A stretch of 21,919 nucleotides of DNA from a virus. The stretch spans positions 1 through 21,919 of the IMG/VR virus record IMGVR_UViG_3300022833_000051; one strand, written 5' to 3'. Every line of letters begins with the position of its first letter. Positions within the stretch are counted from its first letter, which is position 1. A program made the translations under genes and the position numbers. Below, in pieces: positions 6,181 through 20,745 of the stretch. The notes under the pieces are model-generated. The model was given only the letters and a program-made list of their open reading frames with translations, made no database searches and was not told where the DNA came from.

Positions 6181-6230
6181 AATTTTATATTTTAGTTTTA
6201 TTAATCCGTACTAATAGTTTTTAATTAGTT

Positions 6231-6257
6231 AAAAAAAAGGGGCTTTTACACCCCTTT
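6231..6257 (-). terminator. Intrinsic terminator after the SSB-like gene
   Basis: The minus-strand stem AAAGGGG / CCCCTTT with an 8-nt loop is followed by a run of eight T in total. It begins 4 bp after the stop codon of the gene at 6262. Confidence 0.8.
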
Positions 6258-6261
6258 AAAT

Positions 6262-6573
6262 TTAGAAAGGTAAATCATCTTCGTTACTTTCTGCTTTAGG
6301 GCCTCCTATCGCTTTTGGCACGACTTCATTACTAGGCTTCCATGTGTCTACAATAAGGCTTACACCTCCGATTTTTGTGCGCCATATTCCAAATTTTAAT
6401 TGATTGGCCCCGTTGTATTGGGTATAATGATTTTTTGCCTCTGGCGAATCTAAAAATGCTTTTAATTCGTCTATGGAAACAACCCCGCTTGAAATTAATG
6501 TTTCCGGCTGCTTTTCGTTTCTTGGAAATGTTCTAATTCCCTTTAAAAAAATAGTACTTTTTTCTTCTGCCAT
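6262..6573 (-). CDS. Putative ssDNA-binding protein with SSB-type tail
   Basis: This 103-residue protein has a small beta-rich body with aromatic residues (IFLKGIRTFP, HYTQYNGANQLKFGIWR, VSLIVDTWKP). A flexible Gly/Pro-rich linker leads to the acidic end ESNEDDLPF. Such a tail is the hallmark of bacterial SSBs, where the acidic tip ending in Pro-Phe docks partner proteins. No standard OB-fold family is certain from sequence, so the SSB call rests on size, tail and context. It follows the DUF1071 annealing protein and a 46-residue gene, and annealing proteins are commonly paired with SSBs. The primase-helicase ends in the same four residues, DLPF. Confidence 0.62.
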   Translation of the reverse strand: MAEEKSTIFLKGIRTFPRNEKQPETLISSGVVSIDELKAFLDSPEAKNHYTQYNGANQLKFGIWRTKIGGVSLIVDTWKPSNEVVPKAIGGPKAESNEDDLPF

Positions 6574-6575
6574 AA

Positions 6576-6716
6576 TTATTTCAATTTAATTTGATTATCG
6601 TTTATTTTTTGTAAGACTTCGCATATTGCCTCAGACGAACCGGTTATTGTTATAGAGGCTTGCGTAACGCTTTCATATATAACCTCCAAGTGGTCTATTG
6701 TTGTGGTTTGGCTCAT
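6576..6716 (-). CDS. Small acidic protein, 46 residues
   Basis: ATG at 6714-6716 overlaps the TGA (6713-6715) of the annealing-protein gene as ATGA, and its TAA ends 2 bp before the SSB-like start. The product (MSQTTTIDHLEVIYESVTQA at the N-terminus) has a short beta stretch (SITITGSS) followed by a helix (EAICEVLQKINDN). It has no recognised family. Tight coupling on both sides makes it a convincing gene despite its size. It may be a partner of the annealing protein or SSB, but this is a guess from position. Confidence 0.66.
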   Translation of the reverse strand: MSQTTTIDHLEVIYESVTQASITITGSSEAICEVLQKINDNQIKLK

Positions 6717-7366
6717 AATGAAAACGCGGTATTTAATTGATTTTTGTATTCTTTTTTCATTCTAAATGATTTAATTACGTTTTCAGCTTGTTTGGCGTTA
6801 CCTTTTAAAGCCGCAGTCAATTCATTTTCTTTAAGCCATGGCCGGGTATCTTCTTCGTATTTTTTTTGAGGCTTTTTTATAGCCTTTATTTCACTTGAAT
6901 CCGAACCCTCTGGTAAATCTTCACCGGCATATATGTAATGGCCCAAACCAAACATTGCAAAATTCTTTACTAAGCATCGCATTATTGTTTTATTGACATC
7001 AAACATTGAAGCCGCTTCAACTTCTTTTTGAACATCTGGCGCACCATTCCAACCTTTAACCATATAATTATAAGGCATAGCTTTCATGGCTTTATTAGCG
7101 CCATTCATAACGGGCAACCACATTTCCAAAGTTTCGCCTTCAATAGTTACTTCTGTGCTGCATAAATAGCCTAAAATCGGATCTTCAATATATGGCTTGT
7201 TTGTTAATGGGTCTTTGTACACTTTATAAGAGGCGGTTGGGTATGCTTTTTTAACCTCGGCCCAAGCCCAAGCCCATGACAAATAATTTAACCCTTGCTT
7301 TTGCTCTACTTTGTCATTTACATTGATGGCAGATAGCGTTTCAAATACTGATTTTGTTTCATTCAT
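6713..7366 (-). CDS. DUF1071-type single-strand annealing protein
   Basis: This 217-residue protein opens with the DUF1071 signature GLNYLSWAWAWAEVKKAYP at about 25-44 and continues through the core (VKGWNGAPDVQ, then NKTIMRCLVKNFAMFGLGHYIY at about 125-146). A charged C-terminal tail of about 60 residues follows. DUF1071 proteins (related to Sak/Rad52-type annealases) pair complementary single strands in phage recombination. Neighbours fit: a downstream SSB-like protein, and nucleases in the next operon. It starts after AAACCAAAATATT-ATG, and its stop overlaps the next start by ATGA. Confidence 0.85.
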   Translation of the reverse strand: MNETKSVFETLSAINVNDKVEQKQGLNYLSWAWAWAEVKKAYPTASYKVYKDPLTNKPYIEDPILGYLCSTEVTIEGETLEMWLPVMNGANKAMKAMPYNYMVKGWNGAPDVQKEVEAASMFDVNKTIMRCLVKNFAMFGLGHYIYAGEDLPEGSDSSEIKAIKKPQKKYEEDTRPWLKENELTAALKGNAKQAENVIKSFRMKKEYKNQLNTAFSL

Positions 7367-7697: not shown

Positions 7698-10600
7698 TTA
7701 AGGACAGAAAGTAAATCCAGTGTCAGTAACATTCCCTACGCTCGTTCCAGATGGTGTTCGCCCTTCATTTTTATAGGTTTCTCCACCAGCGGTAACCCTT
7801 GCGTTGTCTGCCAATGTAAGTTCTGCATCTGATTGTTCACTTCTCCAGCCAGTGCTTCCATCTGAACATTTTGTTAATGAATAATAAAAAATGCAATTTA
7901 ATTCTCCTGTATCAACAACAAATCCCGCGTTAGGCGTGTCTATTGTTGAAAGGCTTGGCCTTACTGTATAAATTTCTGAACCCACCGCAACTCTATTGAA
8001 TGTATCTAAGGCAATTTCACTTGTGGTTTGTTGGCTTCTCCAATTTATAGATGAATCTGAACATTTTAATAAGGCGTAATATTTTATGCTATAATCCGGG
8101 CAACCAATCAGTCCGGTGGCAGTTACTGCCCCAATTTGAGTTCCACTTGTTCCGGTTCCAATTACTGTATAACTTACGCCGTTATCCGTAACCCTATCGT
8201 TGTTATTTAAAGCAATAGCCTCAGTAGGCTGACCAGAGAGCCAACCGGTGCTGCCATCTGAGCATCTTTGTAATGTATAATAAACCAAAGGAGCAGGACA
8301 GCCCGTTTCATTTGTAATAATTACATTTCCAATACTTGTTCCGGTTGTTGTTATTCCAATAACCGTAAAAGATGGCGGTGGTAAAACATTAGGTTCATTT
8401 ACCCTATCGTTATTAAATAGTGAAATTGCGGTTGTTTCTTGCTCAGATCTAAAACCTTCTGCCCCATCTTCACACCTTCTTAATGAATAGTAATAAATTG
8501 GCGTGGGGCCGGGAGTAGGACAGCCGGTTTCGTTGGTATCTGTTACATTTCCAACGCTTGTCCCCCTTGTTGTGGTTCCAGTTACTACATAGTTTGTTGA
8601 TCCAACCGCAACCCTATCATTATTAGATAGTGATATTTGATTATTTTGCTGGCCGGTGCGCCAACCTGTACTGCTATCGCTGCATTTTCTTAATGAATAA
8701 AATTCATTGGCCGGTGCGCTGCACTCGGTTACGCTTTGAACCTCACCCACTCCGCCACTAATAGTAAAGTAAAAAGCATTTACCATTAAATAGCTGCCAT
8801 TTGCTAAAGGACTTGTTGTGTTTGCCGTTGTATAAACAACATCTCCAATTGTCGGATATGTTCCCGCACCATCGTGGTAGGCTGTAATGTCAGGCACTTG
8901 TTCGCATGGATTTGGAAACGCATTGTTAGACCTTTGAAAAGATGTCAATTCTACCGGAACCGGGCAACCAAATAAACCGGTATCAGTTATTGTTCCAACC
9001 GTTGAACCAGTTACGCCTTGTCCTATAATGGTATAATTTACCAAACTTGAATCTTGAACCCTTCTGTTATTGCCAAGCGTTATCTCATTTGTGTATTGCG
9101 CCGATTTATAGCCAGTACTACTATCTGAGCATTTTTGTAATAAATAAAAATTAAGGCTAACAGTACACGTATCATCTACATCAATTAAATTAGCATTAGG
9201 CGGTACGCTTGGCCTTGTTGTTGCGCAAAAGTCGTTGCCATCGCTATCGGCTTGTAATGTAACCGTTTGAAAAGCCCCATCACAATCGTAATAAGAATAA
9301 GTGATTGAATTGTTTAGATCGTCATTTTGAACGCGATACGTTTTGCAATTTGTAATGATAGGAATTGAATAACTAATTTTATTAGCTTTAAAATCCACAA
9401 CTGCATCTGTTAATTGCTCGCCTAAATGCGCAGAAAAATCATAAAGATTTGACTTTACATTAAATTTTAAGGTATCTATAACTAAAGCCAGACTTTCGCC
9501 AAAATTAGTAAATCCAATTATTAGCCTATTGTGTAAAAATATAGGTATTCTATTGTTTGTTTTTTTTATAGAGCCTTCGTATCTCTGTATTTTAACCCTA
9601 TTGTCGTTTATGCGTTGCTGTGCTGTTAAATCTTCTATAAAGCGGTAGTTTATATCACTAGACCTTTTAAACATCGGCAAAACGCCTTTAAATCCATCGC
9701 CCACCGGGGCCATGTAGCCCTTTAAGAATTGATTAAATGTGCTACCTTGGTATATATCTTTGTATTCTAATTTATTAGTAAGTTTTTTTGTCGTTGTTTG
9801 AGTTGTTACCGTTTCTAAATCTTCACCACTAAATATAAATTTTTCCGGATCTGCCGTTGCGGTTTTCACATACAATAGATTTTTCCAATTAATTATGGAG
9901 CCACCTAAATACATAGCTACATGAAAAGGCGAAGTTGTGGAGGGTTGCCCAAAATTTACAATAAAACTAAGCGGCAAATACCCGCTTGTAACATCTGTAA
10001 TATTATAGGCAATTTCTTTTTTGTAAGTAAGCCATTCACCCCTCCCGGCGTAATTAAATTGATTTGTAAATTCGCTGCTTTGCCATTCGTTTGTTTGGTC
10101 ATTAAAATAAAAATCTTCAAAATCGCTTGTTGGCTCACCTCCCGAATAACGCCTAAATGTTGCTAGTAACTGATAGGGAACAGAATAAGATGCTATTATT
10201 AATGGATAGCCTCCATTTTCCATTTGAAGAACAAAAGAAAAATCAAAAACAGAATCCGAATAAGGTTTTGCCCCGGAATAAAATTCATTTTTTAAAACAC
10301 GTATAAAAGCTGAATCCGTACCTATTATTTTAATTGATTGGCCCCGTATTCCGTTAGTAGAAAGTTCTACATTGTTAGGGTCAATAAATGACCAATTTTC
10401 GAATCCATCTTCAAAATTTCCGTTAGGTATAAAATTAATTTGCTCAGATAATAATACTTTGCTTTTTACCTCAATTACACCGCCGCTTGTTTCTTTGCTT
10501 AAATCTGCATTAATTGGCTTTGCGTCGGTTGGTATCGTTAAAAATGTTGTTTTTATAACATTTTCAATATAAACACCGTCACTCTGGTATCTTCTGTATT

Positions 10601-14223: not shown

Positions 14224-14634
14224 TTATGCATTTGCAGATTTTACAATCGCGCCTGTAAGAGTTATTGAACCAGAATAAGAAACGGTGCTTTCCATTTCTG
14301 CGCTTTGTTCTACTGAAGAAATATAACCTTCAGCGGTATAAATAGCATCACCAGTTGTCGAAGTTCCGAAAACACACGTTACAACGGTTCTGTTTATAAT
14401 ATAGTCAATTAATTCAATTGCGCTTGCTGCATCTGAATAATCAACAAGCCCCTCAAAAGAAATCTCGCCGCTTCTAAGTCCTGATATAACTTCAGAAAAT
14501 CCATTGCTATCTTTTGTGGTTGCATCTGGTAAATCGTGTGAAATTGTAAGAGAACATGAAGTTGTATGTCCTATTGTGTCACCTTCTACTTTCAAAAGTA
14601 AGTTGGTTCCATTAAATACTCCGGTAGTAGCCAT
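14224..14634 (-). CDS. Major tail tube protein (TP901-1 family-like)
   Basis: This 136-residue protein is likely the tail tube subunit. It begins MATTGVFNGTNLLLKVEGDT and has the family pattern of an N-terminal strand pair, then SLTISHDLPDATTKDSNGFSE (about 28-48), LRSGEISFEGLVDYSD, and a C-terminal strand run ending in a Gly-x-Ile-x-Leu-T-G stretch. This matches the phage_tail_2 / TP901-1 major tail protein type. It is followed by a terminator and the chaperone pair. The upstream spacer carries the motif TATCTTTAC at 14661-14669, about 27 nt before the ATG, which may be a late promoter box. Confidence 0.9.
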   Translation of the reverse strand: MATTGVFNGTNLLLKVEGDTIGHTTSCSLTISHDLPDATTKDSNGFSEVISGLRSGEISFEGLVDYSDAASAIELIDYIINRTVVTCVFGTSTTGDAIYTAEGYISSVEQSAEMESTVSYSGSITLTGAIVKSANA

Positions 14635-14685
14635 ATTTTTAATTTAAAGATTTATTTTTTGTAAAGATAATATATTTTTTTCTTA

Positions 14686-14745
14686 TTAATTAAAGCCTAA
14701 TGTTATAACATTTATAAAAGCGATTTTAAGGTCAGAAGTAGTCAT
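14686..14745 (-). CDS. 19-residue peptide, truncated copy of the 51-residue holin-like protein
   Basis: ATG at 14745, TAA at 14686-14688. The peptide MTTSDLKIAFINVITLGFN matches the first 19 residues of the 51-residue protein at 17654-17809 at 18 positions (Ser4 for Thr4). Of six differing codons, five are silent and one is a conservative change, a pattern expected if the peptide is translated and kept. It lies 13 bp after the LamG-like gene and before the major tail gene. It could equally be a remnant of the recombination that placed the cassette here. Confidence 0.4.
   Translation of the reverse strand: MTTSDLKIAFINVITLGFN
14688..14745. repeat. Cassette-flanking direct repeat, copy B
   Basis: It matches 17752-17809 at about 51 of 58 positions, in the same orientation, 3064 bp apart. 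It contains the perfect 14-bp palindrome AATGTTATAACATT at 14699-14712, also present in copy A. The two copies bracket the lysis and fibre cassette. Confidence 0.85.
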
Positions 14746-14758
14746 TTTTTTTATTTAT

Positions 14759-15442
14759 TTAGCAAGCAATCTCATTGTAAAGCGTTGTTACCTCGCTTGG
14801 TGATATTGCCTTATTGAAGATGCGTACTTGGTCTATTGAGCCGTTGTATGGAGCATAATTATTGCCTACTGTTCCAATAACAGTATAAGGTGTTCCAACT
14901 TTAGCTGAAGCTGGCAATGTATAACTTCCTTTAAAACTTTCATCTACATAAAGACTACCAGTGTTTGTAGATTGATTAATTATAGCAACAATATGATGCC
15001 AGTTATTATCATTAAATGTTTCTGTGGTACCAAAATTCGAGGCAGTTCCTCCATAAGAAGTACTTAAGTATAATTTTCCATCTCCACTATATTGTATAAT
15101 TAAATTGTAGTTATTAGTAAAAGTAAAAACCTCATCACTAAAAATATATCCTAATCCCGCAGAACTTTTAGCCCATAAAGAAACACTTGTATTTACTTTA
15201 GGTGTAAAAAAAGTATTTAATCCCGATAATGTAATTTTAGCACTCCCATTAAAAGACCCAGCATCTCCAAATTTACCAGTTACATAAGTTACACTTGTTG
15301 CCGTTCCGTTATAGTTTCCGCTTAAATCCGTAGCATCTCCATTTAGTCTATAAGTTGCTATACAAGAAGTATCTCCTAATATTTGTAAGGTGTCGGTAGT
15401 ACAAGCCACCCCACCAGTATTTATTAATCTTTTTCCAAACAT
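14759..15442 (-). CDS. LamG-like (concanavalin-fold) receptor-binding candidate
   Basis: This 227-residue protein has a laminin-G/concanavalin-like domain over residues 25-225: CIATYRLNGDATDLSGNYNG, SFNGSAKITL, SVSLWAKSS, NDNNWHHIVAII, GSLYVDESFKGSYTL and GSIDQVRIFNKAISPSEV, with the usual closing helix. This fold (LamGL / Laminin_G_3) typically binds sugars. In phages it is found on tail fibres and capsid decorations. It stands 3 bp after the tail-fibre-assembly-like gene, so a fibre tip is the best guess. The short N-terminus (MFGKRLINTGG) has no signal peptide, as expected of a virion protein. Confidence 0.82.
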   Translation of the reverse strand: MFGKRLINTGGVACTTDTLQILGDTSCIATYRLNGDATDLSGNYNGTATSVTYVTGKFGDAGSFNGSAKITLSGLNTFFTPKVNTSVSLWAKSSAGLGYIFSDEVFTFTNNYNLIIQYSGDGKLYLSTSYGGTASNFGTTETFNDNNWHHIVAIINQSTNTGSLYVDESFKGSYTLPASAKVGTPYTVIGTVGNNYAPYNGSIDQVRIFNKAISPSEVTTLYNEIAC

Positions 15443-15445
15443 TTA

Positions 15446-15901
15446 TTAAATATTAAAGGTTGGTAAATCATAAGTAAGAACCGCTTTCTTTGTAGTTAAA
15501 GCCTTTATCTCTGCACCTATTGTATTGCTTTGTGTTCTTAATTCTGCCCTACTATCTATTACTTCTTTTGGTGCAGCTTCTTTGCTATCCATTTGCCTAA
15601 TAACAACCCAATCTGTTCTTTGCAATTCGCCTCCTATAATAGATTTTAAATTGTCTATTTTTTGTGTTTTTAGTTCTGCTAAAGTTTGAGTAATAACCCT
15701 ATCAATAACATCGTATGTATAAACATCTCCAACTAATTTAATAGCAGACAACTCTTCTATTCTTGAATCGTAAGTAGGCGTTACAACATCCAAAAAACCA
15801 AAGCCTTCTTTAATGTTAAAATGCGTACCGTTTTCATCAGTCCAAACACTTGGTATTTTACTAAATGTTTTTATTTCTCCGTTTAAGTTTATTGCTACCA
15901 T
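15446..15901 (-). CDS. Tail fibre assembly-like protein
   Basis: I place the start at the ATG at 15901, one base after the stop of the fibre gene. An upstream in-frame ATG at 15943 would overlap that gene by 41 bp and add 14 residues of poor quality. The 151-residue product begins MVAINLNGEIKTF. Its second half has AELKTQKIDNLKSIIG, then LQRTDWVVIRQMDSKEAAP and EVIDSRAELR. The TDW...R...P...R-x-x-LR pattern is shared by tail assembly chaperone / DUF4376-like proteins encoded beside fibre genes. Here it lies between a fibre-like and a LamG-like gene. It may be a fibre chaperone or a small fibre part. Confidence 0.68.
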   Translation of the reverse strand: MVAINLNGEIKTFSKIPSVWTDENGTHFNIKEGFGFLDVVTPTYDSRIEELSAIKLVGDVYTYDVIDRVITQTLAELKTQKIDNLKSIIGGELQRTDWVVIRQMDSKEAAPKEVIDSRAELRTQSNTIGAEIKALTTKKAVLTYDLPTFNI

Positions 15902-15902
15902 A

Positions 15903-16478
15903 TTAAATAGATTTTGAGATTGAATACCAGTATTGACTTGCACCAGTTACTACTATTTGTATTAAATTAGAAACAGTACCATCGTAAACACCAGCAACCG
16001 TTGTACCAGCGGGAAGTGTTAAAGCAAAATCTCCAGTAATAACTAAATCCTTAACCATTCCAATATTAGCGTTAGTAAATGTTAAAGTAGTGTCAGCCGT
16101 TAAAGTTTTTGTAAATACTTGGGCGCTTGCAAAATCTACCTCTGTGGTTAAAGCTGCACTTGTTTTAAATTCGGTTCCTATTTTTGCGTATGTTACCGAA
16201 TCGTCGGCAACCGCCACATAAATCCACTCGGTTAAGGTTCCGTCTGAAGCTAAGACCTGCCCGGCGGTTCCTAAGTTTCCAGCACTATCTTTAATGCCGC
16301 CTAATGCTTTAAAATCGCCTTCTATTGTTATATTTCCGTTCGTGTCAAAAGCAACCCCCGAAGAATTACCTAAACCGTCGGTTAATAATTTTGGCGTTGA
16401 TGTTAAAGCGCTGTCGTCTGTTGTTTTAAGTAAGCCGTCGTAAGTACTTGAAATTGTTTTGCCCGTTAATGAAGCCAT
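15903..16478 (-). CDS. Tail fibre-like structural protein
   Basis: This 191-residue protein begins MASLTGKTISSTYDGLLKTT and carries the fibre motif GNLGTAGQVLASDGTLTEWI (about 68-87), common in phage fibre and appendage proteins just before a trimeric domain. The remainder is Thr/Ala/Val-rich beta structure (TLTADTTLTFTNANIG), closing with a short C-terminal barrel-like segment. It probably forms part of a fibre or spike with the two downstream genes. A promoter-like TATCTTTG box sits 19 nt upstream, so the fibre genes may be transcribed apart from the lysis genes. Confidence 0.75.
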   Translation of the reverse strand: MASLTGKTISSTYDGLLKTTDDSALTSTPKLLTDGLGNSSGVAFDTNGNITIEGDFKALGGIKDSAGNLGTAGQVLASDGTLTEWIYVAVADDSVTYAKIGTEFKTSAALTTEVDFASAQVFTKTLTADTTLTFTNANIGMVKDLVITGDFALTLPAGTTVAGVYDGTVSNLIQIVVTGASQYWYSISKSI

Positions 16479-16496
16479 ATTTTTATTTTTATGTTA

Positions 16497-16531
16497 CAAA
16501 GATAATAAACTAAAGACTATTTTTTTATCAA
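16497..16531 (-). promoter_or_regulatory. Candidate promoter before the fibre genes
   Basis: The minus strand has TATCTTTG (16497-16504), an exact TAnnTTTG match. A TTG lies at 16529-16531 with a 24-nt spacer, one longer than the described range. It overlaps the 3' end of the spanin gene. Confidence 0.4.
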
Positions 16532-16945
16532 AACAAAATTAAGCAAAACAGAAAATGCCGCCGTAACAATTAACCAAAGAGGCGTTTTATATCTTACAAT
16601 CTCAATAGCTTGTTTTTCGGTGCTTTTTACTATTGTGCTTTTGTATTTCTTTTCAATACTTTGCACTATGCTATCTAAGTTAATTTTAGCCGTTATAGTG
16701 TTGTTTTTGCCCTCTATTGTTATGTTACCTTGTGCGGTCACTAATCGCTGTTTAAAAGGCTTTAAAATGCCTAATGTATCGCATGGGCTTTCTATTAAAA
16801 AACTATCTCGAACCGCTTTAAAAATATAGCGGTCTTTTGTTATAATAATTGTATCGTTTTTTACAATTTCTTTTGTTTGTTTTGTGGTTTTTTTTGCCGC
16901 ACAACTGAGAAATAAAAGTAAAAATATTAAACTAAAGTATTTCAT
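16517..16945 (-). CDS. Unimolecular spanin candidate (lipoprotein plus C-terminal TM)
   Basis: This 142-residue protein has a lipoprotein signal peptide (MKYFSLIFLLLFLSC, lipidated Cys15) followed by Ala-Ala-Lys-Lys. A periplasmic part of about 100 residues is rich in beta and helical stretches (IVKNDTIIITKDRYIF, INLDSIVQSIEKKYKSTIV). One transmembrane segment lies at 121-141 (PLWLIVTAAFSVLLNFVLI), ending in Lys-Lys. An outer-membrane lipid anchor and an inner-membrane C-terminal anchor on one chain is the architecture of u-spanins such as T1 gp11, which fuse the two membranes at the last step of lysis. It overlaps the putative endolysin gene by 14 bp, in a holin-endolysin-spanin order. Confidence 0.78.
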   Translation of the reverse strand: MKYFSLIFLLLFLSCAAKKTTKQTKEIVKNDTIIITKDRYIFKAVRDSFLIESPCDTLGILKPFKQRLVTAQGNITIEGKNNTITAKINLDSIVQSIEKKYKSTIVKSTEKQAIEIVRYKTPLWLIVTAAFSVLLNFVLIKK

Positions 16946-17363
16946 TTTTTTTGGGTTTGCTTTTTATCTCTAAATTAAAGCCTTTGGGCGCCAATTTAAG
17001 CAGATTTTTAATGGTTTTAACGCTATTGGTTACGTCTTTGTATCCATCGCCATTAATATCAGTTAATTTTTCGCCTAATAATATACAACCCTTAATTTGA
17101 AAATGGTAATTTCCCGGGTGAATCAATATAAAAGTTCTATTTTTCACGTCTAAAACATGGTAATGGTTTCCGTATTGGGCGCTCTGCCTATTAACAACCT
17201 TATATTTTCCTTCTGGAATACAACTTTTTTGACTTTTATTTTTTAGCCAAGGCAACTCTAAATTCTTACAACTAAAAACTTTTTTGTCGTTATTATCAAA
17301 CAATTCAAATGATCCGGTAACTTGCAAATCTTGGAAATTTTCTCTAGTAAGTATGGCTTTCAT
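16932..17363 (-). CDS. DUF5675 protein, putative endolysin
   Basis: This 143-residue protein shows the DUF5675 pattern: LELPWLKNKSQKSCIPEGKY (about 35-54), the block QYGNHYHVLDV, then ILIHPGNYHFQIKGCILLG (about 79-97, His82 and Cys93). DUF5675 genes recur in phage lysis cassettes. The His...Gly-Cys arrangement suggests a cysteine peptidase or L,D-transpeptidase-like active site, but this is inference. It lies after two holin-like genes and overlaps the spanin gene, so it is the only endolysin candidate in the window. No signal peptide is seen, consistent with release through a holin. Confidence 0.72.
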   Translation of the reverse strand: MKAILTRENFQDLQVTGSFELFDNNDKKVFSCKNLELPWLKNKSQKSCIPEGKYKVVNRQSAQYGNHYHVLDVKNRTFILIHPGNYHFQIKGCILLGEKLTDINGDGYKDVTNSVKTIKNLLKLAPKGFNLEIKSKPKKNEIL

Positions 17364-17366
17364 TTT

Positions 17367-17476
17367 CTAAAATTTTTTATCTTTATTGTTTTTTAAATTA
17401 ATTTATATGCTTTTATTTCTTATATATACATAATTGTACTAAATAAGCTAAAATTTTTTATCTTTATTGTTTTTTA
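17367..17476. repeat. 29-bp exact direct repeat at the holin gene 3' end
   Basis: 17367-17395 and 17448-17476 are identical over 29 bp, 81 bp apart. The upstream copy encodes the end of the holin-like protein (KNNKDKKF-stop). The other fills the leader of the DUF5675 gene. The 52 bp between them (17396-17447) hold no gene. It may be the scar of a lost gene copy. Confidence 0.9.
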
Positions 17477-17657
17477 TTAATGACCTCAAACCGTCAATGA
17501 TAGTATCTGGAGCAAATAAAAAACCAATTCCTACGATTAATAGTATTGCAAATTGAAACACCTTACTATCTTCTACAATAAAAATATAAGTAATTCCAGC
17601 CCCTATAATTAAGAGGCCCAATAGCGTGGTTTTCCAACTTGCAACTAAGTTTTTCAT
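17448..17657 (-). CDS. Holin-like protein with two TM segments, 69 residues
   Basis: Two hydrophobic segments, at about 10-29 (TTLLGLLIIGAGITYIFIV) and 33-50 (VFQFAILLIVGIGFLFA), are joined by a short acidic turn. The tail is basic (LRSLIKNNKDKKF). Size and topology fit a small holin. Its ATG overlaps the TGA of the 51-residue gene upstream (ATGA at 17654-17657), and the putative endolysin and spanin follow. The holin role is inferred from topology and context; holins share no strong motifs. A 29-bp repeat spans its stop codon. Confidence 0.7.
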   Translation of the reverse strand: MKNLVASWKTTLLGLLIIGAGITYIFIVEDSKVFQFAILLIVGIGFLFAPDTIIDGLRSLIKNNKDKKF

Positions 17658-17809
17658 TTCTTATTTTTATACATTAAATACCATTTGTGGGCTGTGTAGC
17701 CAATAGCAACCGACGTTAATACTATTTTTAGCAATAAATCTATTTGCATAAAATTAAAACCTAATGTTATAACATTAATAAAAGCAATTTTTAAGTCAGT
17801 TGTAGTCAT
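17654..17809 (-). CDS. Small membrane protein, holin or antiholin candidate, 51 residues
   Basis: ATG at 17807-17809, TGA at 17654-17656 overlapping the next ATG. The N-terminus is MTTTDLKIAFINVITLGFNF. A hydrophobic segment at about 23-41 (IDLLLKIVLTSVAIGYTA) follows, then a basic tail (HKWYLMYKNKK). The amphipathic N-terminus plus one TM segment may make it a partner of the two-TM holin-like protein. A truncated copy of its first 19 codons lies at 14686-14745. The ATGA coupling with the holin-like gene and the conserved second copy both support it as a real gene. Confidence 0.7.
   Translation of the reverse strand: MTTTDLKIAFINVITLGFNFMQIDLLLKIVLTSVAIGYTAHKWYLMYKNKK
17752..17809. repeat. 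Cassette-flanking direct repeat, copy A
   Basis: This is the partner of 14688-14745 (about 51 of 58 identical, same orientation). It spans the start of the 51-residue gene and carries the palindrome AATGTTATAACATT at 17763-17776. Confidence 0.85.
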
Positions 17810-17819
17810 TTTTATAAAA

Positions 17820-18257
17820 TTAAATAGGCTGAACCTTGTTTGAAAGTTCTAATATTGCCCTATAATATGTATGGTCTTTTAAATCTTCTTCTAAATAAGT
17901 AATCCCTTCATTTTCGCTAGTGTAAACTTTAAAACCGTCGGCATTTAAATCAAAATACCCTTCGGATCGTGTTCTAACTAAAGCTAAAATAGCGCTCATT
18001 GCTAAATTACTATCCAATTCACCGCCATTGCTTCCTACAAACTTAGTAACCACCTCTATGCGGGTTAAAACTTGCATCGTTAAGCTAGTTTGGTTTTGAT
18101 CTGTTTCGTTATTAGAAACGCTGTACACTATAATATAAGGCGTAACCGCATTGCTAGGAACCCTATTGTAAATTTGTAAAGAAGAACCATTCAAAACAAT
18201 CTGCCCGGTTAATTTTGCGATAATCGCCTTTCTAACAAAATGAATACACTCTAACAT
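17820..18257 (-). CDS. Tail completion / terminator protein (DUF3168-like)
   Basis: This 145-residue protein begins MLECIHFVRKAIIAKLTGQI and has the family pattern: an N-terminal helix, VPSNAVTPYIIVYSVSNNET (about 33-52), a central strand TRIEVVTKF and a C-terminal strand close. DUF3168 proteins cap the tail tube and join the head-completion complex. It follows the gp10-like gene by TAATG coupling. In most siphoviruses the major tail gene comes next; here that is displaced by the cassette 14686-17809. Confidence 0.82.
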   Translation of the reverse strand: MLECIHFVRKAIIAKLTGQIVLNGSSLQIYNRVPSNAVTPYIIVYSVSNNETDQNQTSLTMQVLTRIEVVTKFVGSNGGELDSNLAMSAILALVRTRSEGYFDLNADGFKVYTSENEGITYLEEDLKDHTYYRAILELSNKVQPI

Positions 18258-20399: not shown

Positions 20400-20580
20400 C
20401 TTTGTACGTTACTTCAATGTTATTAATTAATTTCTTTTTAAATTCTACTAATTTTTTTTGCAAAATTATGTTTTGACCAATATTTGCATGATCTATAATA
20501 TTTTCTAAGTCGGCTATAAGTTCTTTCATTTTAATTTTAACATTTACAACATTCTTTTTTTGGAATAAATAACGCGCCAT
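20386..20580 (-). CDS. Hypothetical helical protein, 64 residues
   Basis: It is Lys-rich and helical throughout: KIKMKELIADLENIIDHA and NIILQKKLVEFKKKLINNI suggest two amphipathic helices, perhaps a small coiled coil. No named family fits. It overlaps the 38-residue membrane peptide by 44 bp in a different frame and the next gene by 14 bp. The start at 20580 could be wrong: a later ATG is at residue 18 (20529), which would remove the large overlap and leave 47 residues. Confidence 0.58.
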   Translation of the reverse strand: MARYLFQKKNVVNVKIKMKELIADLENIIDHANIGQNIILQKKLVEFKKKLINNIEVTYKDVKH

Positions 20581-20653
20581 CTTTATAGCTGAAAGTCAAT
20601 GACAATGTAAACACAATAATTATTATAATGGCGTAAAGTGTTGTTTGTTTCAT
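20537..20653 (-). CDS. Membrane micro-protein with Cys-rich tail, 38 residues
   Basis: ATG at 20651-20653, TAA at 20537-20539. The N-terminal hydrophobic segment (MKQTTLYAIIIIIVFTLSLT) is followed by FSYKDGALFIPKKECCKC. The end Cys-Cys-Lys-Cys is unusual. The start has the leader AAAAACCAAATATT-ATG, the same type as before the genes at 5837 and 7366, which supports translation. It is the first gene after the capsid terminator. The function is unknown. It could be a secreted or membrane-anchored peptide. Confidence 0.55.
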   Translation of the reverse strand: MKQTTLYAIIIIIVFTLSLTFSYKDGALFIPKKECCKC

Positions 20654-20745
20654 AATATTTGGTTTTTAATCTTATGCTAATTTAAAATATATTTTTAATA
20701 TACCAAAGAAAATAAAAGAAAATTTTAATATTAATTTTTAAGCAT

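Follow-up and report, generated by a model that had tools for sequence, protein, structure and literature searches.

A 19-codon hol1 fragment marks, by sequence, an edge of fibre-gene swapping among phages of the same waters

Results

In the window, the 21,919-nucleotide stretch of phage DNA analyzed here (IMG/VR record IMGVR_UViG_3300022833_000051), a block of lysis and fibre genes stands between two direct repeats, and the locus raises the question of what these repeats are and which genes have moved with them. A preliminary description had taken them to be the two ends of an exchangeable cassette. The repeat pair was confirmed: positions 14688-14745 (copy A) and 17752-17809 (copy B) lie in the same orientation, 3,064 bp apart, and are identical at 51/58 positions (E = 6.5e-19 in a search against the window's own record), and ungapped extension of the alignment gives 81 nt at 80%. 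The genes between them also proved to be broadly those described (holin-like, endolysin-like, spanin, fibre, fibre-assembly, and LamG), and the block is indeed flanked by the tail terminator and major tail protein genes (Table 1).

Table 1. Features of the repeat-flanked region and of the candidate exchange enzyme in the window
Feature	Positions	Strand	Remarks
Tail terminator	17820-18257		
Two small membrane proteins (hol1, hol2)	17448-17809	minus	
hol1, resident intact 51-aa holin-like membrane protein	17654-17809	minus	first 19 codons are copy B
Palindrome AATGTTATAACATT, copy B	17763-17776		
hol2, DUF5675, and spanin-like genes; resident lysis block outside the exchanged unit	16517-17657	minus	95-98% identity and constant order in relatives
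DUF5675	17363-16932	minus	
Lipoprotein with C-terminal TM segment, unimolecular-spanin-like	16945-16517	minus	
fib, chimeric fibre protein	15903-16478	minus	
fibA, possible tail-fibre assembly protein	15446-15943	minus	inside the exchanged cassette
LamG-domain tip protein, variable cargo	14759-15442	minus	PF13385, E 1.6e-20
Inferred exchanged cassette (fib C-terminus, fibA, tip gene, hol1')	14689-16172	minus	identity profile and type-2 matches
hol1', truncated hol1 gene (5' 19 codons, then TAA)	14686-14745	minus	copy A, 14688-14745
Palindrome AATGTTATAACATT, copy A	14699-14712		codons Asn-Val-Ile-Thr-Leu
TATCTTTA box, putative major tail gene promoter	14662-14669	minus	just beyond hol1'
Major tail protein (resident, flanks the cassette on the right)	14224-14634	minus	phrog_1407, PF06199; 97-100% in family
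Sak single-strand annealing protein (Rad52-like), candidate exchange enzyme	6713-7366	minus	PF06378, E 1.2e-47

Both copies are coding sequence on the minus strand, a point missed by the preliminary description. Copy B comprises codons 1-19 of a 51-aa open reading frame (hol1), and copy A reads MTTSDLKIAFINVITLGFN and is then closed by TAA; six codons differ between the two, five of the six differences being synonymous. Sequence comparison identifies the repeat as the 19-codon beginning of a gene for a small membrane protein, acquired from an unrelated phage, and not as the end of a mobile element. The hol1 product has one hydrophobic stretch and is followed by a two-segment protein and, in a second group of phages (type 2), by an endolysin. 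Profile searches gave no family match for hol1, and a distant homologue is present in Flavobacterium elemo phages directly before a D-Ala-D-Ala carboxypeptidase gene.

The palindrome is perfect in both copies, as had been described, and no third copy was found with up to 2 mismatches allowed. As a recombinase or homing site it was rejected, since it is coding sequence and is not conserved: silent changes break it in many relatives, and it is disrupted in the resident hol1 of L005, L011, L013, and L091. An invertible tail-fibre switch of the Mu/P1 type, with inverted repeats around alternative fibre ends, does not apply to copies that are direct repeats.

The source of copy A (hol1') was sought in other phages. 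It is identical at 58/58 positions to the hol1 start of the type-2 phage G002, versus 51/58 to copy B. Type-2 phages, whose portal is 36% identical to that of Nonlabens phage P12024S, carry a fibre tail-piece, fibA, and a tip gene directly before an intact hol1. Protein matches between the window and type-2 phage G001 are limited to the fib C-terminus, fibA, hol1, and hol2, and the window's capsid protein is absent from type-2 records; by these comparisons, the backbones of window-type and type-2 phages are otherwise almost unrelated. The hol1-hol2 block has 80-84% nucleotide identity with that of type-2 phages. Among all sequences, hol1' shows no fixed difference from type-2 hol1 starts and shares six polymorphic sites with them, versus four fixed differences from resident hol1, and the mean differences are 4.1 and 10.4, respectively, although the comparison involves 57 bp with few informative sites and allele sharing could partly reflect recent common origin. 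An intragenomic duplication of hol1 was rejected, as hol1' is nearer to the hol1 of other phages than to that of its own genome. Thus, in sequence terms copy A is a piece of the hol1 of a type-2-like phage and was not copied from copy B. A DNA search of named phages gave matches only to the tape-measure gene, bacterial genome contigs contained no match to the hol1' pattern, and a search of the literature on gene remnants at module borders found nothing on point.

All window-type contigs that cover the site contain hol1', and outgroups do not; therefore, hol1' is derived. Similar remnants occur elsewhere: in L117, fibre cassettes are followed by two further ones, of 25 nt and 36 codons, and L096 has one of 30 nt ahead of its intact hol1. 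It is very unlikely that hol1' serves as a functional 19-codon upstream open reading frame or leader controlling the major tail gene. Its frame is open and its stop kept in 11/11 window-type sequences compared, and its changes from hol1 are mostly silent, but such changes stem from constraint on hol1 in the donor, and the peptide is changed in several window-type copies. Furthermore, the conserved putative major-tail promoter comes after hol1', and outgroups, in which AATATATTATCTTTAC is conserved, manage without the fragment.

The borders of the exchanged unit were located with identity profiles. Window-type relatives are 95-98% identical elsewhere, and only about 14.76-16.17 kb changes among them; their near-identical backbones differ only in fibre and tip genes, the tip region being unalignable between the 95-98% flanks. 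In all window-type relatives that cover the site hol1' is retained, whereas the tip gene varies, with unrelated genes found in its place. On the left, the N-terminal ~100 aa of fib are specific to window-type phages and the C-terminal ~90 aa are common to type-2 phages and L117, that is, different N-terminal domains are joined to a common C-terminus, and the crossover lies at about 16172-16178 (codon ~101-103). Type-2 matches begin at 16172, positions 14690-14747 are identical to type 2 at 58/58 positions, and the right edge ends at codon 19 of hol1'. Since window-type relatives differ in the tip gene and four tip families recur in other phages, the swapped unit is put at ~1.5 kb, from fib codon ~101 (~16172) to hol1' codon 19 (14689). 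Within it, fibA is 88% identical at the amino acid level to that of G001 and matches the profiles phrog_27919 (E 4.4e-4) and, weakly, phrog_4912, tail fiber assembly (E 0.034); its structure is predicted at low confidence (pLDDT 49).

Against this pattern, a mobile lysis-plus-fibre cassette bounded by both repeats, moved or lost through repeat recombination or by a site-specific recombinase at the palindrome, is scarcely credible, even though real direct repeats with a perfect palindrome do flank the block. The lysis genes are 95-98% identical and in the same order in all window-type relatives spanning the region, and differences between relatives never take in the whole interval. No empty site with a single copy and no excision between the repeats was found in relatives, and exact runs between copies A and B inside one genome reach only 8-17 nt, versus 27-76 nt between hol1' and other phages. 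What stands of the cassette as first described is a host-recognition cassette with the 14.7-kb copy as one edge; it does not fill the ~3 kb between the repeats, the lysis genes are not its cargo, and the 17.75-kb copy is no edge: the intact resident hol1 simply begins there. Older relatives that keep the gene order without a second copy, which the preliminary description itself had named as evidence against bracketing, do exist (L031 and L033-L035).

Four tip families of window-type relatives also occur in type-2 phages or in a third phage, L117. The window-type contig L009 matches the type-2 contigs L092, L095, and L097 at 97.2% over a stretch of 1,063 bp whose end is codon 19 of hol1; the L010 tip is 92% identical at the amino acid level to that of L086, the L014 tip is 68% identical to that of L103, and the L088 cassette is 84% identical in nucleotides to that of L117 over 1,210 bp. 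Fibre genes are thus common to phages whose backbones are otherwise unrelated. A given hol1' allele is not always accompanied by the same cargo, since the hol1' allele of L005 is that of L086 and its tip gene is different. Homology long enough for pairing is present at both edges, about 760 bp at 90% with G001 on the left and exact runs of 27-76 nt on the right.

Could these mosaics be metagenomic chimeras, assembled from co-occurring phages at a shared stretch? Several metagenomes do contain both phage types, and near one end of contig L006 a type-2-like fib start is linked to a window-type tail gene. However, the junction from hol1' to the major-tail promoter is identical in contigs from about ten metagenomes, hol1' is present in every window-type contig covering the site, and L009 matches type-2 contigs of other samples. 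In addition, the window, L005, L012, and L013 span both window-type flanks, which would need two matched switches. An assembly artefact is therefore highly improbable.

Discussion

Our analysis indicates that hol1' is the scar of a fibre-cassette capture, left from another phage's gene, and that it probably still serves as the right-hand homology arm for swaps; we put the probability of this reading at roughly three in four. The origin, borders, and sharing of the cassette and the invariance of the lysis genes are read directly from the compared sequences. In the donor, a type-2-like fibre C-terminus, fibA, and a tip adhesin gene would have stood directly before hol1. A window-type ancestor would have gained this cassette by recombination, with the left join in its own fib at codon ~101 and the right break at codon 19 of hol1, a short distance upstream of the putative promoter of the major tail gene, and the hol1' fragment would have persisted thereafter. 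Because hol1' differs little from the hol1 starts of phages found alongside it, it can provide a short arm of homology, with exact runs of 27-76 nt, by which new tip cassettes may have entered repeatedly, with long homology across the fib C-terminus and fibA as its left partner. Pairing could be carried out by a Sak-type phage annealase or by RecA. The Sak gene is also present in L004, L005, L012, and L130; it occurs in the window group only and in none of the type-2 records searched, which counts against this reading, as do the mild differentiation of hol1' alleles from type 2 (permutation p = 0.0004) and the mismatch of allele and tip gene in L005.

The fragment might instead be a passive scar of one ancient capture, with later tip swaps falling wholly upstream of hol1' and no role for the fragment in exchange. 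This alternative is unlikely but has points in its favour: codons 4-9 of hol1' carry private, partly amino-acid-changing differences in L006, L008/L012, and L013, as expected of a decaying scar, and a single right junction, TTTAATTAATAAG, is common to all window-type contigs. It fits poorly, however, with the type-2 hol1 polymorphisms among hol1' alleles and with the L009-L092 identity, which spans from the tip gene through to the end of hol1'; moreover, besides hol1', there is no right-side sequence common to both partners for a tip swap with a type-2 donor. Returning to the homology-arm reading, we offer as a tentative extension that several unrelated phage groups in one habitat may use the hol1 start as a shared docking site for fibre-tip cassettes; phages with a hol1 fragment on the downstream side of their fibre genes could then take tips from a joint pool, and the broken gene would be kept because it preserves access to that pool.

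The swapped tail-fibre genes probably decide which bacteria are infected. Movement of fibre genes between unrelated phages is already known, usually with blurred junctions. At this locus, the donor, the recipient, and an outgroup can all be compared, the right edge can be located to about one codon, and the fragment left behind reveals the direction in which the cassette moved. If hol1' is reused as a homology arm, this would explain how phages without a shared backbone continue to trade host-recognition genes, and a hol1 start without the rest of hol1 would be a simple mark of such events in metagenomes.

The case is one of tail-fibre mosaicism in which a junction can be read unusually clearly. 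The replacement of whole tip genes is not something that diversity-generating retroelements bring about. In T-even phages, the specificity of the distal fibre adhesin (gp37/gp38) is exchanged by recombination at conserved motifs; adhesins are likewise swapped by recombination here, but genes, hosts, and scale differ, and the exchange crosses unrelated virion backbones. Lambdoid phages reportedly have short, conserved boundary or linker sequences at module edges, proposed as recombination targets by Clark et al. in 2001 for HK620. hol1' is also a short conserved sequence at a module edge, but in its case the sequence is a shortened gene, whose full-length form persists in the donor and is found at a second place in its own genome.

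Rad52-like phage recombinases carry out relaxed homologous recombination, with minimal pairing of 23-27 nt for Red-beta and 31-34 for RecA, and Sak-type enzymes are possible RecA cofactors (PMC3945230). The short imperfect homology islands at mosaic edges are alike, the 27-76 nt runs fit minimal pairing, and the window encodes Sak, although the evidence in the present case comes from sequence comparison. The metaviromic islands of marine phages, at fibre and carbohydrate-binding genes (PMC3909814), resemble our locus as hypervariable host-recognition regions in otherwise conserved phages, but the accessible part of that report identifies no junction or donor. The distantly related Alteromonas phages A5, V22, and P24 share host-recognition modules of fibre plus chaperone (PMC10579305), and here, too, a fibre, a putative assembly protein, and their neighbours are common to otherwise unrelated backbones. 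In contrast to those modules, the junctions are readable, on the left at fib codon ~101 and on the right at codon 19 of a broken hol1, and many alternative tips are found in near-identical genomes.

The repeat copies are coding sequence

The direct repeat and the palindrome noted in the preliminary description were both borne out: the copies, termed A and B (see the table), lie in the same orientation and agree at 51 of 58 positions, and each holds AATGTTATAACATT, of which no further near copy was found within the window, a complete IMG/VR record of 21,919 bp classed as linear. On the minus strand, the reading strand of all structural genes in the window, copy B corresponds to codons 1 to 19 of a 51-aa open reading frame, the holin-like gene hol1, and copy A reads MTTSDLKIAFINVITLGFN followed by TAA, a 5′ remnant designated hol1′. 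Five of the six codons that differ between them are synonymous. The palindrome spans codons AAT GTT ATA ACA TT(A), and silent changes break it in many relatives (e.g., contigs L007, L013, L093, and L096) and likewise in the resident hol1 of L005, L011, and L013. Thus, it was rejected as a conserved site.

hol1′ is a later gain

A major tail protein 97 to 100% identical to that of the window is encoded by 13 other contigs (L003 to L014 and L088; window-type), and all 13 carry hol1′ 54 to 55 bp before the major tail gene. The remnant is absent from contigs at 74 to 87% identity (outgroups). Two of these, L034 and L035, have the gene order of the window (terminator, hol1, hol2, DUF5675, spanin, fibre gene fib, possible fibre assembly gene fibA, LamG gene, and major tail gene), which argues against the earlier proposal that the repeats bracket an exchangeable lysis and fibre cassette. 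Judged by gene order, the lysis-plus-fibre block between the terminator and the major tail gene predates hol1′, which is a later gain. Since a putative promoter 3′ of hol1′, AATATATTATCTTTAC, is also present in outgroups, the right edge of the gain is placed just upstream of it.

hol1′ matches hol1 of a second phage group

A search with hol1 retrieved contigs L086 to L116 of an otherwise almost unrelated group (type-2), in which the fibre C-terminus, fibA, and the adhesin (tip) gene directly precede intact hol1 and hol2. One 32-kb type-2 record, G001 (L151 plus L101), encodes a terminase, portal, head protease, and endolysin; its portal shares 36% identity with the portal of Nonlabens phage P12024S. 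Protein matches between the window and G001 are limited to the fib C-terminus (from residue 91), fibA, hol1, and hol2, and the window capsid protein had no match in G001. In an exhaustive exact-pattern scan of viral_contigs, the hol1′ core occurred only in the two groups and in L117; the pattern had no match in bacterial genomes (genome_contigs).

The window hol1′ matches the hol1 start of the type-2 record G002 at 58/58 positions and is 97% identical to the start in G001, versus only 51/58 for its own hol1. Among 11 hol1′, 27 type-2 hol1 starts, and 6 resident hol1 starts, compared over 57 bp and hence at few sites, hol1′ shows no fixed differences from type-2 and shares six polymorphic sites with it, versus four fixed differences from resident hol1 (mean differences, 4.1 versus 10.4). 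Private changes in some window-type copies are as expected of a decaying scar.

The exchanged segment runs from within fib to hol1′

In an identity profile, window-type relatives are 95 to 98% identical across the terminator, hol1, hol2, DUF5675, spanin, and the fib N-terminus, lose alignment at about 14.76 to 15.4 kb, and regain 97 to 99% identity from about 14.70 kb. Their tip genes fall into several families (see the table), and type-2 phages carry the same families ahead of an intact hol1: over a stretch of 1,063 bp that stops at hol1 codon 19, L009 matches L092 at 97.2%, and the tips of L010 and L086 share 92% (amino acids) and those of L014 and L103 share 68%. The N-terminal domain of fib reads MASLTGKTISSTYDGLLK... 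in window-type and MAKQVIGIGTTANDG... in type-2 phages, and the C-terminal domain is common to both from about codon 101, placing the left exchange border, on these alignments, inside fib. Docking of the N-terminus on the virion, with the remainder tradable, would make sense of such a border. Contig L006 starts with a type-2-like fib N-terminus and ends with window-type tail genes; it is a genuine recombinant or else a chimeric assembly.

A broken hol1 start is found repeatedly at the right end of fibre cassettes. L117, part of a 122-kb record with a primase and several fibre-like proteins (a third backbone), carries two fibre cassettes in tandem, both of which close with a 5′ remnant of hol1 running into an identical TATATTTGCCAG...CTGGC sequence; its first cassette is 84% identical (nucleotides) to that of L088 over 1,210 bp. 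In the type-2 contig L096, a remnant 32 bp before intact hol1 is fused to the fibre gene end (GCTTTTGCTAATCAATTTTAA), in what looks like a joint at GCTTTT.

Coordinates and carriers of the features (window positions unless a contig is named)
Feature	Location	Description
Copy A (hol1′)	14688-14745	58 bp
Copy B (hol1 start)	17752-17809	58 bp
L117 remnant, first cassette	L117:4351-4375	25 nt of hol1 start
L117 remnant, second cassette	L117:7682-7864	36 codons of hol1
L096 remnant	L096:4752-4781	30-nt hol1 start
L006 fib N-terminus	L006:27-437	type-2-like
Tip gene	window, L006, L013	LamG
Tip gene	L014	DUF7483
Tip gene	L009	weak F5/8 type C match
Tip gene	L008, L010, L012	123-128-aa family
Tip gene	L088	unclassified, 279 aa
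Tip gene	L005	unclassified, 293 aa
hol2 end	17448-17476	last 29 bp
Second hol2 end	17367-17395	identical, 81 bp on, just before DUF5675
Segment after hol2	17393-17460	86-92% identical in type-2
Shared stretch	20553-20670	82% identical to type-2
Shared stretch	6219-6287	90-94% identical to type-2
Tail protein repeats	7698-9200	about seven, divergent, unit roughly 200 bp
Tandem duplication	1790-1869	40 bp, 95%

Other repeats and shared stretches

The end of hol2 is duplicated in the window, and the segment following hol2 there also follows it in type-2 phages. Because that segment is type-2-like, while hol2 of the outgroup L035 directly adjoins DUF5675, hol1-hol2 may be a further imported block, with an old end of hol2 left behind. 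Two further stretches resembling type-2 DNA are short and partly intergenic, their neighboring genes are unrelated between the window and type-2, and they are possibly shared regulatory sequence. Elsewhere, the 3′ part of the gene for a 1,250-aa tail protein contains repeats whose unit ends in a Cys-rich motif (YYSLxKCSDGSTGWRS...), and a tandem duplication overlaps the 3′ end of gene 1822-2724.

A model for cassette exchange

Most likely, a type-2 cassette of about 1.5 kb (fib C-terminus, fibA, tip gene, and hol1′) was captured, and hol1′ is its trailing edge. As such, hol1′ could pair with the beginning of hol1 in any type-2 genome inside the same cell, and with the fib C-terminus and fibA as the left arm, a double exchange would replace the tip gene. 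When hol1′ is compared with its closest type-2 counterpart, the longest exact run is 27 to 76 nt; when the two copies within a genome are compared, it is 8 to 17 nt. The former meet or nearly meet the minimal pairing lengths of 23 to 27 nt for Red-beta and 31 to 34 nt for RecA (PMC3945230), but the latter do not, and the lysis genes may have escaped loss by recombination between the copies because these runs are too short. A Sak annealase (PF06378) is encoded by the window and also by L004, L005, L012, and L130. Contigs of both groups occur in the same metagenomes (such as 3300022841, 3300036668, 3300022822, 3300023237, 3300022843, and 3300032435), and therefore the exchange partners co-occur. 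Capture of the cassette, its borders, and its sharing are shown by sequence comparison; we infer that hol1′ is reused as an arm, which enzyme acts, and that host range is affected.

All sequences compared are metagenomic assemblies, and an individual contig (L006, for example) could be a chimera. The hol1′-promoter-major tail junction, however, recurs in contigs of about ten metagenomes, and both cassette flanks are spanned by several contigs. By similarity of related phages, the host is probably flavobacterial.

Fibre modules common to unrelated phages are already known (PMC10579305), and so is the hypervariability of such genes in marine phages (PMC3909814). New here is a junction whose edge is marked by a truncated foreign gene start, which may itself serve as a homology arm.
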